The position numbers and the translations under genes are program-made. 64,000 nucleotides of DNA from Gemmatimonas sp. GTDB taxonomy: Bacteria; Gemmatimonadota; Gemmatimonadetes; Gemmatimonadales; Gemmatimonadaceae. Under the pieces are notes generated by a model that worked only from the letters and a program-made list of their open reading frames with translations, was not told the DNA's origin and ran no database searches. Where the stretch lies: assembly GCA_011390935.1 (NCBI GenBank), contig JAABRL010000010.1, positions 23,031 through 87,030 of the forward strand. The letters are read 5' to 3'. Shown here in pieces: positions 9,836 through 18,689 of the stretch (the first letter of the stretch is position 1; each line of letters opens with the position of its first letter).

Positions 9836-10555
9836 TCAGACAGGCTTGCCGAGATCGTTGACGGCGATGCCGCGCACCGAATCGAGGGCGGTGATGGTTT
9901 TCTGGGCTGCGCCGAAGCGGTGCAGGACCTGCAGCATGGAGGTCATGGCATCCATGGGGTTCACATTGCTTTCTTCGACCACGCCCTGTTTCACGCGACG
10001 GGCGGCCACGTCGAGCGGCTGGCGCGAGGCGTCGGGCACGAAGCGCACGCCGCCTTCGTGGACCGGGTTCACCCCGGCGGCGATGGCTTCGATGCGCAAG
10101 CGGCTGAAGGGACGGCCGTTGAGCTGCACCTGTCCGCCGGCATCGATGGTGAGCTGGCTGGCGGCCACGCCGTTGGGGAGCGTGAGCGTGCCGGTTTCCG
10201 CGAGCAGCGGATTGCCCGCCGAGTCCACCACGCGCCGTTCGGCGTCGAGGCGGAAGTTGCCGCCGCGCACATGCCGTTCACCGGCGGGGGTGTCGATGAC
10301 GAAGAAGCCATCGCCTTCGATGGCGAGATCGAGCGGATTGCCAGTGGGTGACATGGTGCCAGGGCTGAGATCCACGCGGGTCTCGGTGGCCGCGACGGCG
10401 TCGTCGATCAGCCGGGCGAAGACCTGCTCGCGCTTGAAGCCGGAGGTGCTGACGTTGGCGAGGTTGTTGGCCAGCACCTGCTGCCGTCGCTCGAGCATGG
10501 CGAGCGAGGCGGCCGCACTGGTCATTCCATTGAGTCGGACGGGTCCTGGGGGCAT
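9836..10555 (-). CDS. flgF: Proximal rod protein FlgF
   Basis: MLERRQQVLANNLANVSTSGFKREQVFARL; rod/hook family, upstream of flgG. Confidence 0.9.
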   Translation of the reverse strand: MPPGPVRLNGMTSAAASLAMLERRQQVLANNLANVSTSGFKREQVFARLIDDAVAATETRVDLSPGTMSPTGNPLDLAIEGDGFFVIDTPAGERHVRGGNFRLDAERRVVDSAGNPLLAETGTLTLPNGVAASQLTIDAGGQVQLNGRPFSRLRIEAIAAGVNPVHEGGVRFVPDASRQPLDVAARRVKQGVVEESNVNPMDAMTSMLQVLHRFGAAQKTITALDSVRGIAVNDLGKPV

Positions 10556-10630
10556 GGCAGCGGTGCGTTAGGCCGGGGTGGGTGTGTCGACTGCTCGATC
10601 ACACCTCCGGCGTCTGCGCCCATATAAAGC

Positions 10631-10659
10631 AACGGTCGGGCCACGTTGGCCCGACCGTT
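10631..10659 (-). other. Perfect 13-bp stem, 3-nt loop hairpin in the flgF leader
   Basis: AACGGTCGGGCCA-CGT-TGGCCCGACCGTT. Confidence 0.75.
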
Positions 10660-10670
10660 TGGGTGTTTCG

Positions 10671-10688
10671 TAAGTTGTTGATTTGTAT
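10671..10688 (-). promoter_or_regulatory. Shared flagellar upstream box ATACAAATCAACAACTTA (minus strand)
   Basis: 16/18 identical to the box at 37041-37058 upstream of flgB. Confidence 0.5.
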
Positions 10689-10704
10689 TAACTTGGATAT
10701 ATGC

Positions 10705-10719
10705 AGGCAAATAGTGCCG
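10705..10719. promoter_or_regulatory. Inverted repeat AGGCA-N5-TGCCG upstream of flgF
   Basis: aggcaaatagtgccg. Confidence 0.5.
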
Positions 10720-10742
10720 AGTGTGTGTTGAGGCGCTTGGCC

Positions 10743-10757
10743 CGGCAAATCATGCCG
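10743..10757. promoter_or_regulatory. Inverted repeat CGGCA-N5-TGCCG upstream of flgF
   Basis: cggcaaatcatgccg; reverse complement shares 14 nt with 21031-21044. Confidence 0.55.
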
Positions 10758-10844
10758 TTCTGGGCGGGAGTTGCCGTCGGTTTTCGGGAATAGGGTCGGG
10801 GCGAGGTCTGATCTGGAAACTGCAACCGAGTTGGGAAAGAAGGG

Positions 10845-10910
10845 AAGAATGGATCAAGGAGGAACAAGGCATCGCGGCTCGCGGGCCTTGTTCCTCCTTG
10901 ATCCATTCTT
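10845..10910. repeat. 26-bp perfect inverted repeat with 14-nt spacer; imperfect pairing continues outward
   Basis: aagaatggatcaaggaggaacaaggc (10845-10870) / gccttgttcctccttgatccattctt (10885-10910). Confidence 0.9.
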
Positions 10911-11003
10911 TTCTTCGTCTTGAGCTCAGCTGTAGTTTCGACCGGCCGCGACGTCTACGAGAACGCCGCGCGAGACCGTACACGGCGCCGGGAAACGCCG
11001 GCG

Positions 11004-11372
11004 CTATCGAAGCAGGTGCGTGGCGTAGTACGTAGGCGCACCAGTTCGGACCTCCCCGACGGCCCGGAACCTCACTCTCGCACCTGGAGCGATCGTTCCA
11101 TCGGCCACACTGGCGAGAACCTGAAGCAGCAACTGGTCTCGACCTCCAAGCTCTCGACCGACGACGTGAACGTCCGCCCCGGTACGAAACGATTCGTTCG
11201 GATGCAACAGCACTTGGACGCGGTGCGGCGCAGCCTTCACGATCACCGTATCGACGGTGCCTTCAACGACAAAGGGGGGTTCGACCGCGAAGCCCGAGTC
11301 GGCCGCGCAGGAAACCGACGACACCAACAGCGCCGCCGCTGCGAGCACACCTCTCCATGTTGACCTCAGCAC
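11004..11372 (-). CDS. Small lipoprotein, paralog B of a tandem pair
   Basis: VLRSTWRGVLAAAALLVSSVSCAADSG...GEVRTGAPTYYATHLLR; lipobox; similar to 11653-12027. Confidence 0.65.
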   Translation of the reverse strand: MLRSTWRGVLAAAALLVSSVSCAADSGFAVEPPFVVEGTVDTVIVKAAPHRVQVLLHPNESFRTGADVHVVGRELGGRDQLLLQVLASVADGTIAPGARVRFRAVGEVRTGAPTYYATHLLR

Positions 11373-11590
11373 GCGAACCCCGGTGCACAAACATTGGTGA
11401 GCACTCCAAGATCCTGCGCGATGTTGGTGAGCCGATTCGAGTAGGTGACTGTTGGGTCTGGCATGTGCGGTCCTCACCAAAGCACGCCGTACCAAGCGTG
11501 ACTCTCTCTCTTCTGAGCCAACGAAACATCGGAGACCCGCTGTCTCCCCTTTGAGACCACACGTTGGTGACGTCCGAGCAGCGCTGCTCA
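11372..11590 (-). pseudogene. 3' remnant of an S1-type protease gene (duplicate of the end of 12021-13400)
   Basis: CSDVTNVWSQRGDSGSPMFRWL...(frame disruption)...LTNVCAPGFAC*; strong nucleotide match to 12021-12240. Confidence 0.8.
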
Positions 11591-11652
11591 TGCGTCATTT
11601 CGACTTCTCGCCTACCCAACTCAGAAGCGGTCGATGGTACAGACTCGCGCGC

Positions 11653-12027
11653 CTACCGCCGCCGCCATTTCGTCGCGAGGTACATGGGAATACCCGTTCG
11701 CACCTCTCCATCCGCGACGAAGAATGTCACCTTCCGACCGTTCGAGATCGACCCATCGAGCGTGCCGGCGAGTACGCTCCGAAAGAGTGCGTTGCTTCCA
11801 CCTTCACGGGAGCCGTACACATTCACCTGAGCCTGACCGCCGCGAGCGTCGTCGCGGTCGATCTGGACGCGAATGCGGGTCAGCTGCGGATACACCTGTA
11901 CGTCGATCACGGTACCCGAAACGGTACCGCGATCCTCTATGACCTGCAGGGACGAGGAGTCGCATCCAAGCAGCACAAACGATAGTGCGGCCAACGCGAT
12001 GGCGCGCTTGAGTTGGGACACTAGCAT
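11653..12027 (-). CDS. Small lipoprotein, paralog A of the tandem pair
   Basis: MLVSQLKRAIALAALSFVLLGCDSSS...GEVRTGIPMYLATKWRRR; start overlaps protease stop. Confidence 0.7.
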   Translation of the reverse strand: MLVSQLKRAIALAALSFVLLGCDSSSLQVIEDRGTVSGTVIDVQVYPQLTRIRVQIDRDDARGGQAQVNVYGSREGGSNALFRSVLAGTLDGSISNGRKVTFFVADGEVRTGIPMYLATKWRRR

Positions 12028-13400
12028 GCGAACCCCGGCGCACAAACATTCGTGAGCGCGCCAAGATCCTGCTCGATGTTGCTGAGCCGATTCGAATAGG
12101 TGACCGTCGGATCTCCGCTTTGCGGTCCTCCCCACAAAATGCCGTACAAGGCGACGTTGTCACCCCCAAGCCAATGAAACATCGGAGACCCGCTGTCTCC
12201 TCCGTCGGACCACACGTTCGACACGTCCGAGCAGAACTGCTGCCTGAAAGACAACCAGACACACGTCTGGGTGATCTGTCCGGTTGTTCCCCCACTCGTG
12301 CGTCCCGTCTTGTCCAGCCAGGTGCCGACCAGTATGGTGCTGAGGCGCTGCGTGATCGTGCGGTAGCCAGCAACCACGAGCCCGCCAGGTCCGAGGTACC
12401 CGTTATAATCAGTCTTGGCGATGAACCCGTAGGGCGCGCCGCTCAACCGCATCGTGTTGCGCGTGAAATACGAGGCATCGCTCCATCGGCACGTCGGCCA
12501 CAGCGACGATAGACACCGGTAGTTCGGCCTATCGTGTGATTCGGAACCGACTTCGTTGGTGGGCAGTAGCCACGTTGGCTGTGTCAGCGGGTTCCAATCC
12601 AGCTCTCGGTCCAAGGCGGAGCAGTGCGAATTGGTGACCATGACCGGCACCCCTAGGCGGAGCGCCCGAAAGCCCATGGTGCAGTAGTCGAGAGCACCCG
12701 GACCGTAGCGGACTTCTATCCCGCCAACCAGCCACTGATGGAAATCCTGAACCGTGATGCGTGGTGCCGATCGCTGCACGCGCGTGATCGCGTACGCCGA
12801 CTCCGGAAGGCCCATCGCGTGTGCATGGGCCTTCACCGCCTCGTCTCCAGTAGCCGAGAGCGTACCGACGAGCAGTCGGTTTCGCGTCTCGTCGATGTCC
12901 AGCATTTCGATGTCGTCCCGCTCCATCAAGGCGCCGAACGCATCGAACCACTCACGCAGCTGGTAGAAATCGTGTTCGACTCGTTGAATCGTGATGCCGG
13001 CATACGCACTCAGGAGCGGGATACGTGTCGCCAAACGCATACTGGCCACGTAGCGACGGACCGCTGACTCATCGCCCCGCTCGGTCAGGAGGACGGCGAG
13101 GGTGCTGTCCGCACGCACGTACACTCCGGCGAAGCCCGGCGCCTCGGCGCGCGAGGCGCGCGCCCATTCATCGTCAGACGAGATCGGCGATCGGAACCAG
13201 TAGGGCTCCGTCGCACTCTCTACACGGCGCGACGCAGGCACGTCCGGTTCAACGACCGTCAATGAATCGCCGCTTTGGCCGCACGCGGAGAGCAGCGCTC
13301 CGGCGAGTATCCGTGCAGCAATCGCGCGGTGTGTACCGGTACCGCGGGGGGGGGGAGAAACTGCAATGTCGCCTCCGGGTAGCTTGTAGTTGTGATCCAA
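12021..13400 (-). CDS. Trypsin-like (S1) serine protease, predicted lipoprotein; start uncertain because of the C10 tract
   Basis: VMVTNSHCSALD (His box) and GDSGSPMFHW (Ser box); lipobox LLSAC; TTG start at 13400 in the current frame. Confidence 0.75.
   Translation of the reverse strand: MDHNYKLPGGDIAVSPPPRGTGTHRAIAARILAGALLSACGQSGDSLTVVEPDVPASRRVESATEPYWFRSPISSDDEWARASRAEAPGFAGVYVRADSTLAVLLTERGDESAVRRYVASMRLATRIPLLSAYAGITIQRVEHDFYQLREWFDAFGALMERDDIEMLDIDETRNRLLVGTLSATGDEAVKAHAHAMGLPESAYAITRVQRSAPRITVQDFHQWLVGGIEVRYGPGALDYCTMGFRALRLGVPVMVTNSHCSALDRELDWNPLTQPTWLLPTNEVGSESHDRPNYRCLSSLWPTCRWSDASYFTRNTMRLSGAPYGFIAKTDYNGYLGPGGLVVAGYRTITQRLSTILVGTWLDKTGRTSGGTTGQITQTCVWLSFRQQFCSDVSNVWSDGGDSGSPMFHWLGGDNVALYGILWGGPQSGDPTVTYSNRLSNIEQDLGALTNVCAPGFAC
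13346..13355. repeat. Homopolymer G10 (C10 on the coding strand) in the protease signal-peptide region
   Basis: accgcGGGGGGGGGGagaaa. Confidence 0.95.
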
Positions 13401-13498
13401 CTACACACAAAACAGGCTGAACACCCACTGCAGGTTTGTCAAGACACAGCGTCGCGTCGCACTGTCGGTCTTGATCTCTTCTTCCTCCCTTCCCCCAT

Positions 13499-14086
13499 TC
13501 AGTTGCGACTGCGGTTCCCGTTCGATGGAAGCGGCGTTCCCGTCTGCGTCACCGCCAGCAGCAGCGCGATCGCATCCATGGGCAGGCCGGTGTGTCGAGA
13601 AATCTCGAGCGGGCTCGACCCCTGCGCGGCGAGTGCGCGCACGCGCTGCGGCACGCCAGACGGCGAGCCGCGGCGACGCGACGGGACCGTGGGAATCGGG
13701 CTGGCCGCCGAGCGCGGCAGGCGTACCGGTGTGGCGGCGCGGCGCCGAGCCAGATGCCAACTGCGCAGCGCGGCCGCGCCGAACGCCGCGCCGGCGAGCG
13801 CGGCGATCAGCATGCCGAGCCGACGCGGGGAACGATCACCGAGCACGAGATCGAGCATGCCCTGCGCACCGCCGAACGACGTGATCCACTGCCCCGCGTC
13901 TGCGGTGAGCATGGTGGAGCGCGTCGCAATGCTGGCACCGGCGAGCTTGGCGACCGGGAGCAGCTGATCGGGCGCGGCCCAGGCCGCACCACCCACCACG
14001 CCCACCGCCGAGACGGCAAGCGTGATGCCGAGCAGACGCCACGGGCGCATATCGTTGGACGCCTTGCGTGCGAGACGCGTGGTCAT
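13499..14086 (-). CDS. Membrane protein coupled to fliA, SwrB/YlxL (DUF6115)-like candidate
   Basis: Hydrophobic N-terminal segments; C-terminal VRALAAQGSSPLEISRHTGLPMDAIALLLAV; overlaps fliA stop. Confidence 0.5.
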   Translation of the reverse strand: MTTRLARKASNDMRPWRLLGITLAVSAVGVVGGAAWAAPDQLLPVAKLAGASIATRSTMLTADAGQWITSFGGAQGMLDLVLGDRSPRRLGMLIAALAGAAFGAAALRSWHLARRRAATPVRLPRSAASPIPTVPSRRRGSPSGVPQRVRALAAQGSSPLEISRHTGLPMDAIALLLAVTQTGTPLPSNGNRSRN

Positions 14087-14838
14087 GCGATGCGCTCCCG
14101 CATGGGCTGCAGGTCGGTGCGCAGCTTGCCGAGTGCCTTGGAGCGAATCTGCGAGACGCGCGATTCCGTGAGCTCGAGCACCTTGGCGATTTCGTGCAGC
14201 TTGAGCTCTTCGAAGTAGTAGAGCGACAGCACGATGCGCTCCTGCTCCTTGAGACGCAGGATCGCGTCCTTGAGGAAGTGCACCTCCTGCTCGTGGTTGA
14301 TCGCGTCTTCGACTTCGCTGTCTTCGTTCGTGGTGAGCACTTCGATCGGCGCGGGGGCGTGGCTCTCGCGCTCGCCCGGTGCCCGATCAAGCGGAATGTG
14401 ATGCGCGCCTTCCACGTCGGCCTGCCAACGCCACAGCGTCGCACGGTCCACCCCGAGGTGCTCGCACAGTTCGTCGTCATCGGGCAGGCGACCGAGCACG
14501 CGCATGAGCGTTTCACGCGCCGCGGAAATTTCGCGCGTCTTGCGACGGATCGAACGCGGGACGTGATCCTGCTTGCGCAGTTCGTCGAGAATCGCGCCAC
14601 GAATGCGCGGCGCCGCAAAGGTGCTGAACGCGAGGCCGCGTGACGGATCGAAGCCTTCGAGGGCGGTCATGAGCCCGATCGTGCCGGCACTCACGAGTTC
14701 ATCGAAGTCGGCACGAACGGCCAACGTGCGCGACATCTGCCGAGCGACGTGATGCACAAGGCCGAGATGCTCCTGGAGCAGGTTCGTGCGGGCAGATTCG
14801 CTCCCCTGCTTGAAGGAGTCCCAGAGCGTGTGGTTCAT
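14083..14838 (-). CDS. fliA: Flagellar sigma factor FliA (sigma-28)
   Basis: LVHHVARQMS...FDELVSAGTIGLMTALEGFDPSRGLAFSTFAAPRIRGAILDELRKQD...SLYYFEELKLHEIAKVLELTESRVSQIRSKAL. Confidence 0.95.
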   Translation of the reverse strand: MNHTLWDSFKQGSESARTNLLQEHLGLVHHVARQMSRTLAVRADFDELVSAGTIGLMTALEGFDPSRGLAFSTFAAPRIRGAILDELRKQDHVPRSIRRKTREISAARETLMRVLGRLPDDDELCEHLGVDRATLWRWQADVEGAHHIPLDRAPGERESHAPAPIEVLTTNEDSEVEDAINHEQEVHFLKDAILRLKEQERIVLSLYYFEELKLHEIAKVLELTESRVSQIRSKALGKLRTDLQPMRERIA

Positions 14839-14873
14839 GACGGCAGATCCTCGGGGGGTAGTAACGGGCACGG

Positions 14874-15767
14874 TCAGGCACCAAGGCGAGAGGTGGAGGC
14901 CGCGGGCACCATGCGAAGCACGGTGTCGTGGGCGGCGACGGCGACCGGAGAGCCGGTCACGGCGTCGAGAAACGGCATGCCGGCGCGCAGCGCGGCATCG
15001 AGTGCGGAGTCATTCGGCAGCGCGCCAGCGAAGGCGATCGCGCGTCCGAGAAACTGCTCGGCGCCGTGCGCGATGGTGTCGGCCACGCGCGAGGCGGTGG
15101 CATCGTCGAGACGGTTGGCGAGCAGGTCGATCGCCAGCAGCGGATGACGCACATGCACCGCCTTGAGCAGTGCATACGAGGACGCGAGGGCGACCGGGTC
15201 CTGACCACCGGTCACCACCACGAGACGTACCGAACTGCGCGCGCCATCGAGCGCCGCCAGCACGGTGTCGAGCCGGGCACCCGCATCGATGACCACGAGC
15301 GCGAATGACGCGGCGAGCGTGTGCAACCGAGCAAAGCAGGCGCGACGCTCGGCGGTGGAGAGCAGCGGATCGGGCGCACCGGCGTCGGTGCGTCCTCCCG
15401 CCACAAGGGAAAGCGTGGGAGCGATGGTGATCGCGAGATGATCGGCGGTCGCGGCTGCACCGCGCAGCATCGGCCAGCGCATCAGCGGCGTGACGCCGAG
15501 CAGCAGCGCCTGCGGTCCCACCAGTTCGTCACCATCGATGAGCAGCGTGCGATGTCCGTCACCGGCCGCGGCGAGGGCGAGCAGCGCGGCGGCGAGCGAC
15601 GTGCCGCTGCCACCACGTCCACTCGCGCACACCAGCACGACGGGCCCGTTCGCGTCGGTCGTCCGCGCGCGCGTGCGTGCGCCCACCACATCGCGCATCG
15701 CATCGAGCTGCGATGTGGCAATGGTTGGACGCGAATCGCGCGCCGCATAGGTGAGCATGGCCGACAT
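14874..15767 (-). CDS. flhG: FlhG/MinD-like ATPase with degenerate deviant Walker A
   Basis: VVLVCASGRGGSGTSLAAALLALA...RTLLIDGDELVGPQALLLG; adjacent to flhF. Confidence 0.75.
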   Translation of the reverse strand: MSAMLTYAARDSRPTIATSQLDAMRDVVGARTRARTTDANGPVVLVCASGRGGSGTSLAAALLALAAAGDGHRTLLIDGDELVGPQALLLGVTPLMRWPMLRGAAATADHLAITIAPTLSLVAGGRTDAGAPDPLLSTAERRACFARLHTLAASFALVVIDAGARLDTVLAALDGARSSVRLVVVTGGQDPVALASSYALLKAVHVRHPLLAIDLLANRLDDATASRVADTIAHGAEQFLGRAIAFAGALPNDSALDAALRAGMPFLDAVTGSPVAVAAHDTVLRMVPAASTSRLGA

Positions 15768-16609
15768 CAGGCGGCGACCCAGCTGTCGTCGGCGTCAATG
15801 CCGAGTCCGAGTGCACGCAGCAGCCGCGGCACCGATGGTGCGAGGTGCGCGGGCACGTCCTGGCCGTCAGTGATCCAGCGCGTGGGCAACGCCATGGACA
15901 ACGCGAGGTCGCTCACGCCACGTTCGGCGGGGACTTCGTCGAGCTTGGTGAGCACGAGATGCGTCGCGCCGCGATGCGTCGGCGACGTGCGATACGCACG
16001 CTCGGCGGCGAGCGCAATGTCGGCGCGGATCGTGGCGGGCAGCACGAGATGCACTTCGTCGGGCGCGATCGCGTCGAGCAGTGAACGCCACCGATCGGAC
16101 ACGTCGGCGGCCGCGGGTGAACGGCCCGGCGTGTCGATGATCACCACATCGCAGTCGCGCAGGCGCGTGAGTGCTTCGGGGATTTCGCGCGCGTCGTACA
16201 GCACCTCGAAGGGCACGTCGGCGAGCTCGGCGTACGTGGCGAGCTGTTCCATTCCACCGACGCGATACGTATCGATGGTGAGCAGGCCGGTGCGTCCGAT
16301 GCCGAAGGTGCCGGGGCGCACCGCAAGCTTCGCCGCGGTGGTTGTCTTGCCGGCGCCGGTGGGGCCAACGAGTGCGATGAGGTACGGGCGTCCGTTGTCG
16401 CGGCGCAGCGGCGTAGGCAGCGCATCGGCCGTGAGTCGAGCGCGTGCGTGCTCGAGCGTGGCCGCGGGTGCGGCGAGCACTTCGACAATCGGTACACCGT
16501 CGTCGCGCAGGGCCCGCGTGTGCAGGATCATGACGTCGTCGCCCAGCGCGCGGCGCGCACGCTGCGACACCTGGCTGAAGTCGGCGCCGCGGAAGCACTC
16601 AAGCTGCAT
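15767..16609 (-). CDS. flhF: Flagellar SRP-like GTPase FlhF
   Basis: LIALVGPTGAGKTTTAAKLA...LLTIDTYRVGGMEQLATYAE...VVIIDTPGRS; ATG at 16609. Confidence 0.95.
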   Translation of the reverse strand: MQLECFRGADFSQVSQRARRALGDDVMILHTRALRDDGVPIVEVLAAPAATLEHARARLTADALPTPLRRDNGRPYLIALVGPTGAGKTTTAAKLAVRPGTFGIGRTGLLTIDTYRVGGMEQLATYAELADVPFEVLYDAREIPEALTRLRDCDVVIIDTPGRSPAAADVSDRWRSLLDAIAPDEVHLVLPATIRADIALAAERAYRTSPTHRGATHLVLTKLDEVPAERGVSDLALSMALPTRWITDGQDVPAHLAPSVPRLLRALGLGIDADDSWVAA

Positions 16610-18689
16610 GTGACATTTCCCAGGTAGCGACACTGGTGAGCGTGATGGACGCCGGCAGTTCGCCGAGCGAGATGATCGGAAGCGCCGGGAGGACCGGTTC
16701 GATGAGGCGACGCACGCCCACGCGCAGCGATGGCGGCGTGATGAGCGGCAGCGGCCGGCCGTCCACGGTGTGCGTGGTGGCGAGCTGATTGAGGTCGCGC
16801 AGCAGAGCGGCGAGCGTATCGGGCGTGAGTAGCGGCGTGCCCTGCTGCGCCATGCGCGGCGAGAACAGTCCGGTGAGCGCCGCTTCGAGCCGTGCGCCCA
16901 TGGTGACACCGCGCACCGTGCCGGTCGCATCGGCGAAGAGCCGGGCGATGACGTTGGTGAGCGCGCGACGCACGCCTTCCGTGAGCACTTCGGGGTCCTT
17001 GGTGCTCTCGGCGCCATCGCCGAGCGCTTCGAGAATCGTGACCAGGTCGCGAATGGGCACCCGCTCGCGCAGCAGTCGCTGCAGGACACGATGCAGGGTG
17101 CTGAGCGACACCTTGTTCGGAATGATTTCTTCCACGAGCGCGGGGTGCGACTTCTTGAGCGTTTCGATCATGCCCTGCACTTCCTGACGGCCGAGCAGTT
17201 CGGCCGCATTGCCCTTGAGCGTTTCCATGAGGTGCGTGGCCACCACGGTCGTGGGTTCCACCACCACGTAGCCGAGCGCTTCCGCTTCGGTGCGGCGTGG
17301 TGCCGCGATCCACTTGGCCGGCATGCCGAACGACGGGTCGACCGTGTCCATGCCGTCGATGTCGGCGACCACGCCGCCGGTGTCGAGCGCCATGAGAAAA
17401 CGCGGCAGCACTTCACCGCGCGCGACTTCGGAGCCGCGCAGCTTGATGAGGTATTCGTTGGCCGGCAGACGAATGTCGTCGCGAATGCGAATGGGCGGCA
17501 CGAGAATGCCGAGCTCGAGTGCGGCCTGCTTGCGCAGCAGCGAGATGCGTTCGAGCAGGTCACCGCCCTGCGATTCGTCCACGAGCGGAATGAGCGCGTA
17601 GCCCACTTCGAGTTCGATCGGATCGATCTGCAGCAGATCGCGCATGGGATCGGCTTCCTGCGGCTCCTCGGGCTCGGGCGCGGGTTCGATCAGCGCGAGT
17701 TCGTTGCGACGGTCTTCCTGCTTGCCGCTGGAGCGTGCGAGCAGCGCGGTGCCACCGGCGAGCGCGAGGAACGGGAGCAGCGGCAGCCCTGGCACGAGCG
17801 CAAACGATCCGAGCAGGCCGGCGGTGATCCACAGCGCGCGCGGGTGGGCGCCCAGCTGATTGCCGATGACCACACCAATGCGGTCGGTGCCCGTGGACGC
17901 CGTGACCATGATGCCGGCGGCGGTCGAGATGATCAGCCCCGGAATCTGCGAGACGAGGCCGTCACCGACGGTGAGAATCGTGTAGGTGGAAGCGGCGTTG
18001 GCGAAGTCCATGCCACGCTGCACCACACCAATGAAGATGCCGCCGAGGATATTGATGACGACCACGAGAATGCCGAGGATCGCGTCGCCCTTCACGTACT
18101 TGGACGCACCGTCCATGGCACCGTAGAAGTCGGCCGTGCGCGAAATGTCATCGCGACGCTTGCGTGCTTCCTTTTCGTCGATGAGGCCGGCCGAGAGATC
18201 GGCATCGATGGCCATCTGCTTGCCGGGCATCGCATCGAGGGTGAAGCGCGCCGCGACTTCGGCAATGCGGCCGGCACCCTTCGTGATGACGATGAAGTTG
18301 ATGCCGACGAGAATGAGGAAGATGACCACGCCCACGGCATAGTTGCCGCCGATGACGAACGCACCGAACGCTTCGATCACCTGACCCGCTTCACCGCGCG
18401 AGAGAATGAGGCGCGTGCTCGAGACGTTGAGGCCGATGCGGAAGAGCGTGAGCAGCAGGATCAGCGACGGAAACGAGCTGAAGTCGAGCGGATTGGTGTT
18501 GTAGAGCGAGACGAGCAGCACGGTGAGCGAGAGCCCGATGCTGGCCGCGAGACACAGATCGAGCAGCAGCGGCGGCAGCGGCAGCACGATGAGCGCGATG
18601 ACGAACACCACGGCGAGTGCGAGCGCGACTTCTGCACGCTTGCGGCCGGCCAGGCCATCGAGAGGGATCGGGAGAGCAGCGCTGGTCAT
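16599..18689 (-). CDS. flhA: Flagellar export protein FlhA
   Basis: LCLAASIGLSLTVLLVSLY...FPSLILLLTLFRIGLNVSSTRLIL...GNYAVGVVIFLILVGINFIVITKGAGRIAEVAARFTLDAMPGKQMAID. Confidence 0.97.
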   Translation of the reverse strand: MTSAALPIPLDGLAGRKRAEVALALAVVFVIALIVLPLPPLLLDLCLAASIGLSLTVLLVSLYNTNPLDFSSFPSLILLLTLFRIGLNVSSTRLILSRGEAGQVIEAFGAFVIGGNYAVGVVIFLILVGINFIVITKGAGRIAEVAARFTLDAMPGKQMAIDADLSAGLIDEKEARKRRDDISRTADFYGAMDGASKYVKGDAILGILVVVINILGGIFIGVVQRGMDFANAASTYTILTVGDGLVSQIPGLIISTAAGIMVTASTGTDRIGVVIGNQLGAHPRALWITAGLLGSFALVPGLPLLPFLALAGGTALLARSSGKQEDRRNELALIEPAPEPEEPQEADPMRDLLQIDPIELEVGYALIPLVDESQGGDLLERISLLRKQAALELGILVPPIRIRDDIRLPANEYLIKLRGSEVARGEVLPRFLMALDTGGVVADIDGMDTVDPSFGMPAKWIAAPRRTEAEALGYVVVEPTTVVATHLMETLKGNAAELLGRQEVQGMIETLKKSHPALVEEIIPNKVSLSTLHRVLQRLLRERVPIRDLVTILEALGDGAESTKDPEVLTEGVRRALTNVIARLFADATGTVRGVTMGARLEAALTGLFSPRMAQQGTPLLTPDTLAALLRDLNQLATTHTVDGRPLPLITPPSLRVGVRRLIEPVLPALPIISLGELPASITLTSVATWEMSHAA

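Follow-up and report, generated by a model that had tools for sequence, protein, structure and literature searches.

Genes and Features of the Locus

The 64-kb window (the whole stretch of DNA analyzed here) carries on its minus strand a gene for a predicted lipoprotein serine protease, followed by a gene for a small lipoprotein. The features of these genes and of the protease leader are listed in Table 1. Read along the minus strand, the order is GGAGG-CGACA-TTG-CAG-TTT-CT-C10-GCGGTACCGG, then ILAGALLSAC, and then the 420-residue mature protein. The immediate context of the poly-C tract on the coding strand is CCCGGAGGCGACATTGCAGTTTCT-C10-GCGGTACC.

Table 1. Positions of the features at the protease locus, in window coordinates.
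Feature	Position	Strand	Remarks
TTGACA, possible −35 element	13437..13442	-	Lies in a block nearly unchanged in the sister species
8-bp inverted repeat with 5-nt loop, 5' leader	13385..13405	-	TGTAGTTG-GATCA-CAACTACA
TTG chosen by mechanical ORF calling, unlikely start	13398..13400	-	No Shine–Dalgarno (SD) sequence, in hairpin, frame stopped in the sister species
GGAGG, SD-like	13372..13376	-	Spacer of 5 nt to TTG 13366; same sequence in the sister species
TTG, probable true start	13364..13366	-	Frame fits at C11/C8 but not at C10
C10 homopolymer	13346..13355	-	In the part coding for the signal-peptide n-region; read from the sequence
OFF-frame peptide, 35 aa + stop	13259..13366	-	From TTG 13366 at C10
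Remaining signal peptide, RGTGTHRAIAARILAGALLSAC	13281..13345	-	h-region and lipobox LSAC; all 20 aligned homologs keep the lipobox Cys
Mature lipoprotein protease, 420 aa + stop	12021..13283	-	Alpha-lytic/streptogrisin-like catalytic domain; His220, Asp269, Ser364, numbered from the lipid Cys
Small lipoprotein downstream of the protease	11653..12027	-	ATG (12025-12027) overlaps the protease stop; translation of the two may be coupled

The protease and lipoprotein genes form an island (region 9836-18689) between flagellar genes, which include a flgF/G-like gene, a sigma factor, and flhA. A tandem duplication is present at 11004-12027, where the protease and small lipoprotein are followed by a protease remnant and a second small lipoprotein. 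The remnant is C-terminal (11368-11588) and is 81% identical in DNA sequence to the end of the protease. The second small lipoprotein of the window is the ortholog of the single small lipoprotein at the sister-species locus described below. The ancestor probably had two protease–lipoprotein units. A self-inverted repeat of approximately 124 bp with 77% identity lies at about 10816-10939, in an intergenic position upstream of the flgF-like gene.

The leader upstream of the tract contains an 8-bp inverted repeat. A hairpin is predicted at the same place in the sister species, with a weak z of about −1.6 in both species, and two of the three changed bases in the sister sequence still pair through G-U. 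A 5' leader structure conserved between the two loci is weakly suggested. A sigma-70 scan for a promoter at the protease leader gave no full match.

Tract, Start Codons, and Reading Frame

The preliminary description of this DNA reported ten consecutive C residues ahead of the hydrophobic core and lipobox, and a TTG at 13400 inside a perfect 8-bp hairpin. Direct reading of the minus strand confirms both. The C10 run begins 11 nucleotides downstream of the opening T of TTG 13366, near the 5' end of the ORF. The codon for the lipobox cysteine occupies 13283-13281, and the distance from TTG 13366 to it is 83 nucleotides, so the frame is restored by one additional C (11) or by two fewer (8). The earlier claim that this TTG, 5 nucleotides downstream of GGAGG, is in frame only at 8 or 11 C therefore holds in its coordinates and its arithmetic. 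From this conserved start, C11 gives a 448-aa ORF, while the assembled C10 gives a 35-aa product (MQFLPPPAVPVHTARLLHGYSPERCSPRAAKAAIH*). No in-frame ATG, GTG, or TTG exists between the tract and the lipobox.

In the assembled sequence the longest ORF begins at TTG 13400, which is in frame. It had been proposed as the codon at which translation must start in the present frame, but the conserved start, judged by the sister species, is TTG 13366.

Ortholog in a Sister Species

One close ortholog of the protease was found (L002). It is 86% identical and syntenic, and lies at L002:1052-2308 on contig JALOPN010000281.1 of a congeneric MAG, Gemmatimonadaceae isolate Prado130 (G002). Only the window genome (G000) and G002 carry the protease ortholog; it was not found in the congeners G003 and G004.

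The L002 leader reads GGAGGCGACATTGCAGT-C9-GCGGTAGC. The sequence GGAGG-CGACA-TTG-CAG is identical at the two loci, within the shared stretch GGAGGCGACATTGCAG. Relative to the window, the L002 tract has one C fewer and lacks four bases at its 5' border, and the two leaders differ between SD and lipobox by 5 nucleotides net, entirely at the tract and its border. At C9 the L002 TTG reads in frame into the same lipobox, giving MQSPPRGSDTHRAIAAQIVAGALLSAC. The frame opened in L002 by the counterpart of TTG 13400 is closed by a TAG right behind the tract. Because L002 keeps the SD, TTG, and CAG in frame while the 13400 equivalent is stopped, TTG 13366 is likely the start and the window allele is likely out of frame. 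The comparison makes it very probable that the protease lipoprotein starts at TTG 13366 and that the tract length of the window allele is an OFF, or a miscounted, one.

The position of the tract is kept between the species and its length differs (C10 in the window, C9 plus the border indel in L002), a comparison of two species with one assembly each. The G000 assembly has 111 contigs and is 91.9% complete; that of G002 has 410 contigs and is 64% complete. Both are fragmented and incomplete, and their homopolymer lengths may be miscounted.

The Encoded Protease

The mature part of the protein is under purifying selection. Between the window and L002, dN is 0.092, dS is 0.523, and dN/dS is 0.177 over 420 codons, with no additional frameshift or stop. 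The break in frame is thus not old decay. All 20 aligned homologs share the lipobox Cys, His220, Asp269, and GDSG 362-365 (containing Ser364).

No Pfam family matched the protease at gathering score. A profile built from the alignment finds alpha-lytic protease and streptogrisin B with an E of about 4e-10. An AlphaFold2 model with a pLDDT of 73 has L5 protease and alpha-lytic protease as its best PDB matches (E about 1e-10, TMt about 0.75). The protein is predicted to be a lipid-anchored serine protease of the chymotrypsin (double-barrel) fold, a relation that applies at the fold or clan level only. Its N-terminal region may correspond to a pro-domain, which it resembles.

Distant homologs (about 30% identity; L003-L098) mostly retain the lipobox, and none has a signal-peptide tract longer than 6. 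The long tract is accordingly specific to the clade of the window and L002. Divergence from L002 across 12021-13283 is mosaic, with dS of 0.12-0.22 in the first 180 codons and 0.6-3 in the catalytic half, which suggests recombination between the duplicated units in one lineage.

Chance Expectation for the Tract

The C10 tract is the sole G/C run longer than 7 in the window, where 0.016-0.066 runs of at least 10 are expected (Markov orders 1-3). The whole genome (4.45 Mb) contains three tracts of at least 10 (about 1-5 expected) and six of at least 9 (about 6-20 expected). These counts are within expectation, so length alone is unremarkable. The non-random aspect is the placement of the tract between a conserved SD and start and a conserved lipobox, with poly-C kept in the sister species. 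The case for the tract rests on position, conservation, and frame, and not on length.

Tracts in Other Lipoproteins

C/G tracts were filtered for a start codon with SD no more than 75 nucleotides upstream, an ORF of at least 90 aa when −1, 0, or +1 was allowed at the tract, and a hydrophobic stretch and lipobox downstream. In G002, 5 of the 11 testable tracts of at least 9 lie in lipoprotein signal peptides: the protease tract and those of L045, L139, L140, and L142. The protease tract (C9) is in frame and the other four are out of frame as assembled. L045 contains G12 (frame-shifted reading MRSWSIIARLGGGGALALTLLTGCAGD), L139 contains C14 (MTGSPPPPQRRHSAVGREVLGLIATCWIVLSSVIFVAGCSS), L140 contains C12 (MPKRLPPPREYARNLALVSLICLSACGD), and L142, whose start codon is ambiguous, contains C9 (...SIRRAALRVSLAARRPVAVFAFVGAVACDQP). 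Frames scrambled at the tract in signal peptides of otherwise open genes are what fast slippage would be expected to produce, and equally what repeated miscounts would.

The protease tract alone passes the filter in the window genome (1 of 6 tracts of at least 9). None passes in G003 (0 of 8) or G004 (0 of 8), and 1 of 41 passes in other genera, a lipobox case (L150). Short runs of 5-7 pass in 4 of 86 cases in the window and in 0 of 92 in the genus loci. The filter and its thresholds were fixed after the first cases were known, so the Fisher p-values for long tracts in G000 and G002 combined (6/17) against short runs (4/178; p = 3e-5) and against tracts of other genera (1/41; p = 0.002) are optimistic and indicative only. 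The number of C10+ tracts was also considered as a clade signal and was rejected; such tracts are widespread in 179 genomes of the family, and position alone is informative.

No homologs of the tract-bearing lipoproteins L139 and L140 were found in 60 relatives. The sequence adjoining L139 has matches of up to 86% in congeners, which supports its contig belonging to the genus. The flanks of L140 and L142 match chiefly other G002 contigs, and these two contigs may therefore be contamination.

Long tracts also occur upstream of genes for exported proteins. L127 (G002:C353) has the sequence TTGACA-GAGTCGC-G12-AAGTAT, a possible promoter spacer, upstream of the lipoprotein MRPCTRALLTLLFAAGCTSAADS. 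L129 (G002:C388, 817-1215) has a G13 tract and L141 (G000:C88, 2161-2513) a C13 tract, each upstream of a small Cys-rich secreted protein of unknown family. In G002 the poly-G begins 7 nucleotides (L127) and 4 nucleotides (L129) after TTGACA, with the promoters called by eye. The L141 and L129 tracts are possible promoter-type switches.

A Candidate Switch and Its Alternatives

The preliminary description had suggested a phase-variable switch. Part of that reading is retained, on the basis of the start at TTG 13366, the purifying selection, and the recurrent tracts in lipoproteins of the sister genome. With moderate confidence, C10 is predicted to be a translational slipped-strand switch of an exported lipoprotein serine protease. 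Translation would begin at TTG 13366, driven by GGAGG, and within the signal-peptide n-region the poly-C would be read as prolines. With 8, 11, or 14 C, reading would continue through ILAGALLSAC, leading to export, lipidation, and maturation (ON). At the remaining lengths, including the assembled C10, a stop would follow after about 35 codons (OFF). Slippage during replication would add or remove C residues and so flip the state; a single C gained at the window allele would turn the protease on. The overlap of the downstream ATG with the protease stop suggests that translation of the small lipoprotein may follow the state of the protease, so the two may switch together. We infer the slippage rate, the ON/OFF expression, and the benefit of the protease switch.

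The main rival, considered fairly unlikely, is a miscounted homopolymer: the true tract would be C11 (or C8), the gene would always be in frame, and the OFF state would be an assembly or library artifact. The draft is fragmented and incomplete, a consensus may err by one at runs as long as C10, and the sister ortholog is in frame. Against this, four more signal-peptide tracts of G002 are out of frame, which would require repeated errors, and a run of 9-11 C lies at a slippage-prone site in two species regardless. The possibility that TTG 13400 is the true start in the window species, with a long leader and constitutive expression, is improbable. Its frame at C10 and its longest ORF speak for it, but it has no SD and lies within the leader hairpin, the equivalent frame in the sister species meets TAG right after the tract, and the conserved GGAGG would become coding sequence.

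A recent one-way frameshift that has just inactivated the gene is given similarly little probability. A dN/dS of 0.18, the retention of all catalytic residues, the lack of a second lesion in 420 codons, and a lesion placed precisely at the one reversible site all argue against it, although the gene is out of frame with its conserved start and a true wreck, the C-terminal remnant at 11368-11588, adjoins it. Programmed slippage of RNA polymerase or the ribosome at C10, yielding a fixed low fraction of full-length product from unchanged DNA, receives hardly any weight. Homopolymers of at least 8 are typical of programmed transcriptional realignment, but motifs for slippage in transcription are usually runs of A/T (PMC3711429), and the sister species is in frame without such slippage.

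With the slipped-strand switch as the preferred reading, the locus is well supported as a candidate switch of a known type. The recurrent tracts of the sister genome suggest an on/off system resembling those of some pathogens, and the protease tract is possibly one of a lineage-specific set of switches. More tentatively, and with less than even confidence, a lineage of environmental Gemmatimonadaceae may carry a set of contingency loci, made up of n-region poly-C/G tracts in lipoproteins and promoter-spacer tracts ahead of other exported proteins, that switch a fast-evolving and partly species-specific surface proteome cell by cell.

Most known slipped-strand phase variation comes from host-adapted bacteria, in which it is usually explained by immune evasion. 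A limited literature search found no paper on phase variation in Gemmatimonadota, a result that does not prove absence. It is surprising that an environmental lineage of this phylum may switch several exported proteins, with a signal-peptide design that recurs in a phylum that is not host-adapted. If true, a set of surface-lipoprotein switches in an environmental phylum with no known host would point to other selective forces, such as phages, predators, and competitors. Worth noting is that ORF callers are prone to misplace the starts of tract-bearing genes or to omit these genes.

Comparison with Known Systems

The catalytic domain of the window protease is like that of alpha-lytic protease and streptogrisin B (PA clan, S1-type, with a pro-region) by profile and fold. 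The window protein differs in having a lipoprotein signal peptide, where these enzymes have plain secretion.

The phase-variable surface serine protease NalP of Neisseria meningitidis has poly-C within its coding sequence; the tract ranges from 6 to 15 C, and NalP is ON at 7, 10, and 13 (PMC3723659). The window protein, a predicted surface protease, resembles it in having coding poly-C of about that length. NalP belongs to the autotransporters and comes from a human commensal and pathogen, whereas the window gene encodes a small lipoprotein protease of alpha-lytic type in an uncultured member of the Gemmatimonadaceae. The C-terminal beta-barrel translocator of autotransporters such as NalP is absent from the window protease, whose mature form (420 aa) extends no further than the protease domain. 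The window tract differs further in lying in the n-region of the signal peptide, and its switching is a prediction.

A slippage repeat in a signal-peptide coding region is found in oipA of Helicobacter pylori (PMC10564699), where toggling affects the frame of an export signal, as is proposed for the window locus. Unlike the window locus, oipA has a CT dinucleotide repeat, encodes an outer-membrane protein of a pathogen, and has had its ON/OFF states studied in many isolates. The fetA poly-C of Neisseria is listed as intergenic (PMC5953494). Intergenic switches of the fetA type are comparable to L127 and L129 of G002, where poly-G follows TTGACA; these are loci other than the protease, with promoters assigned by eye. 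The proposed window switch is likened to NalP and oipA in working principle, not in ancestry.
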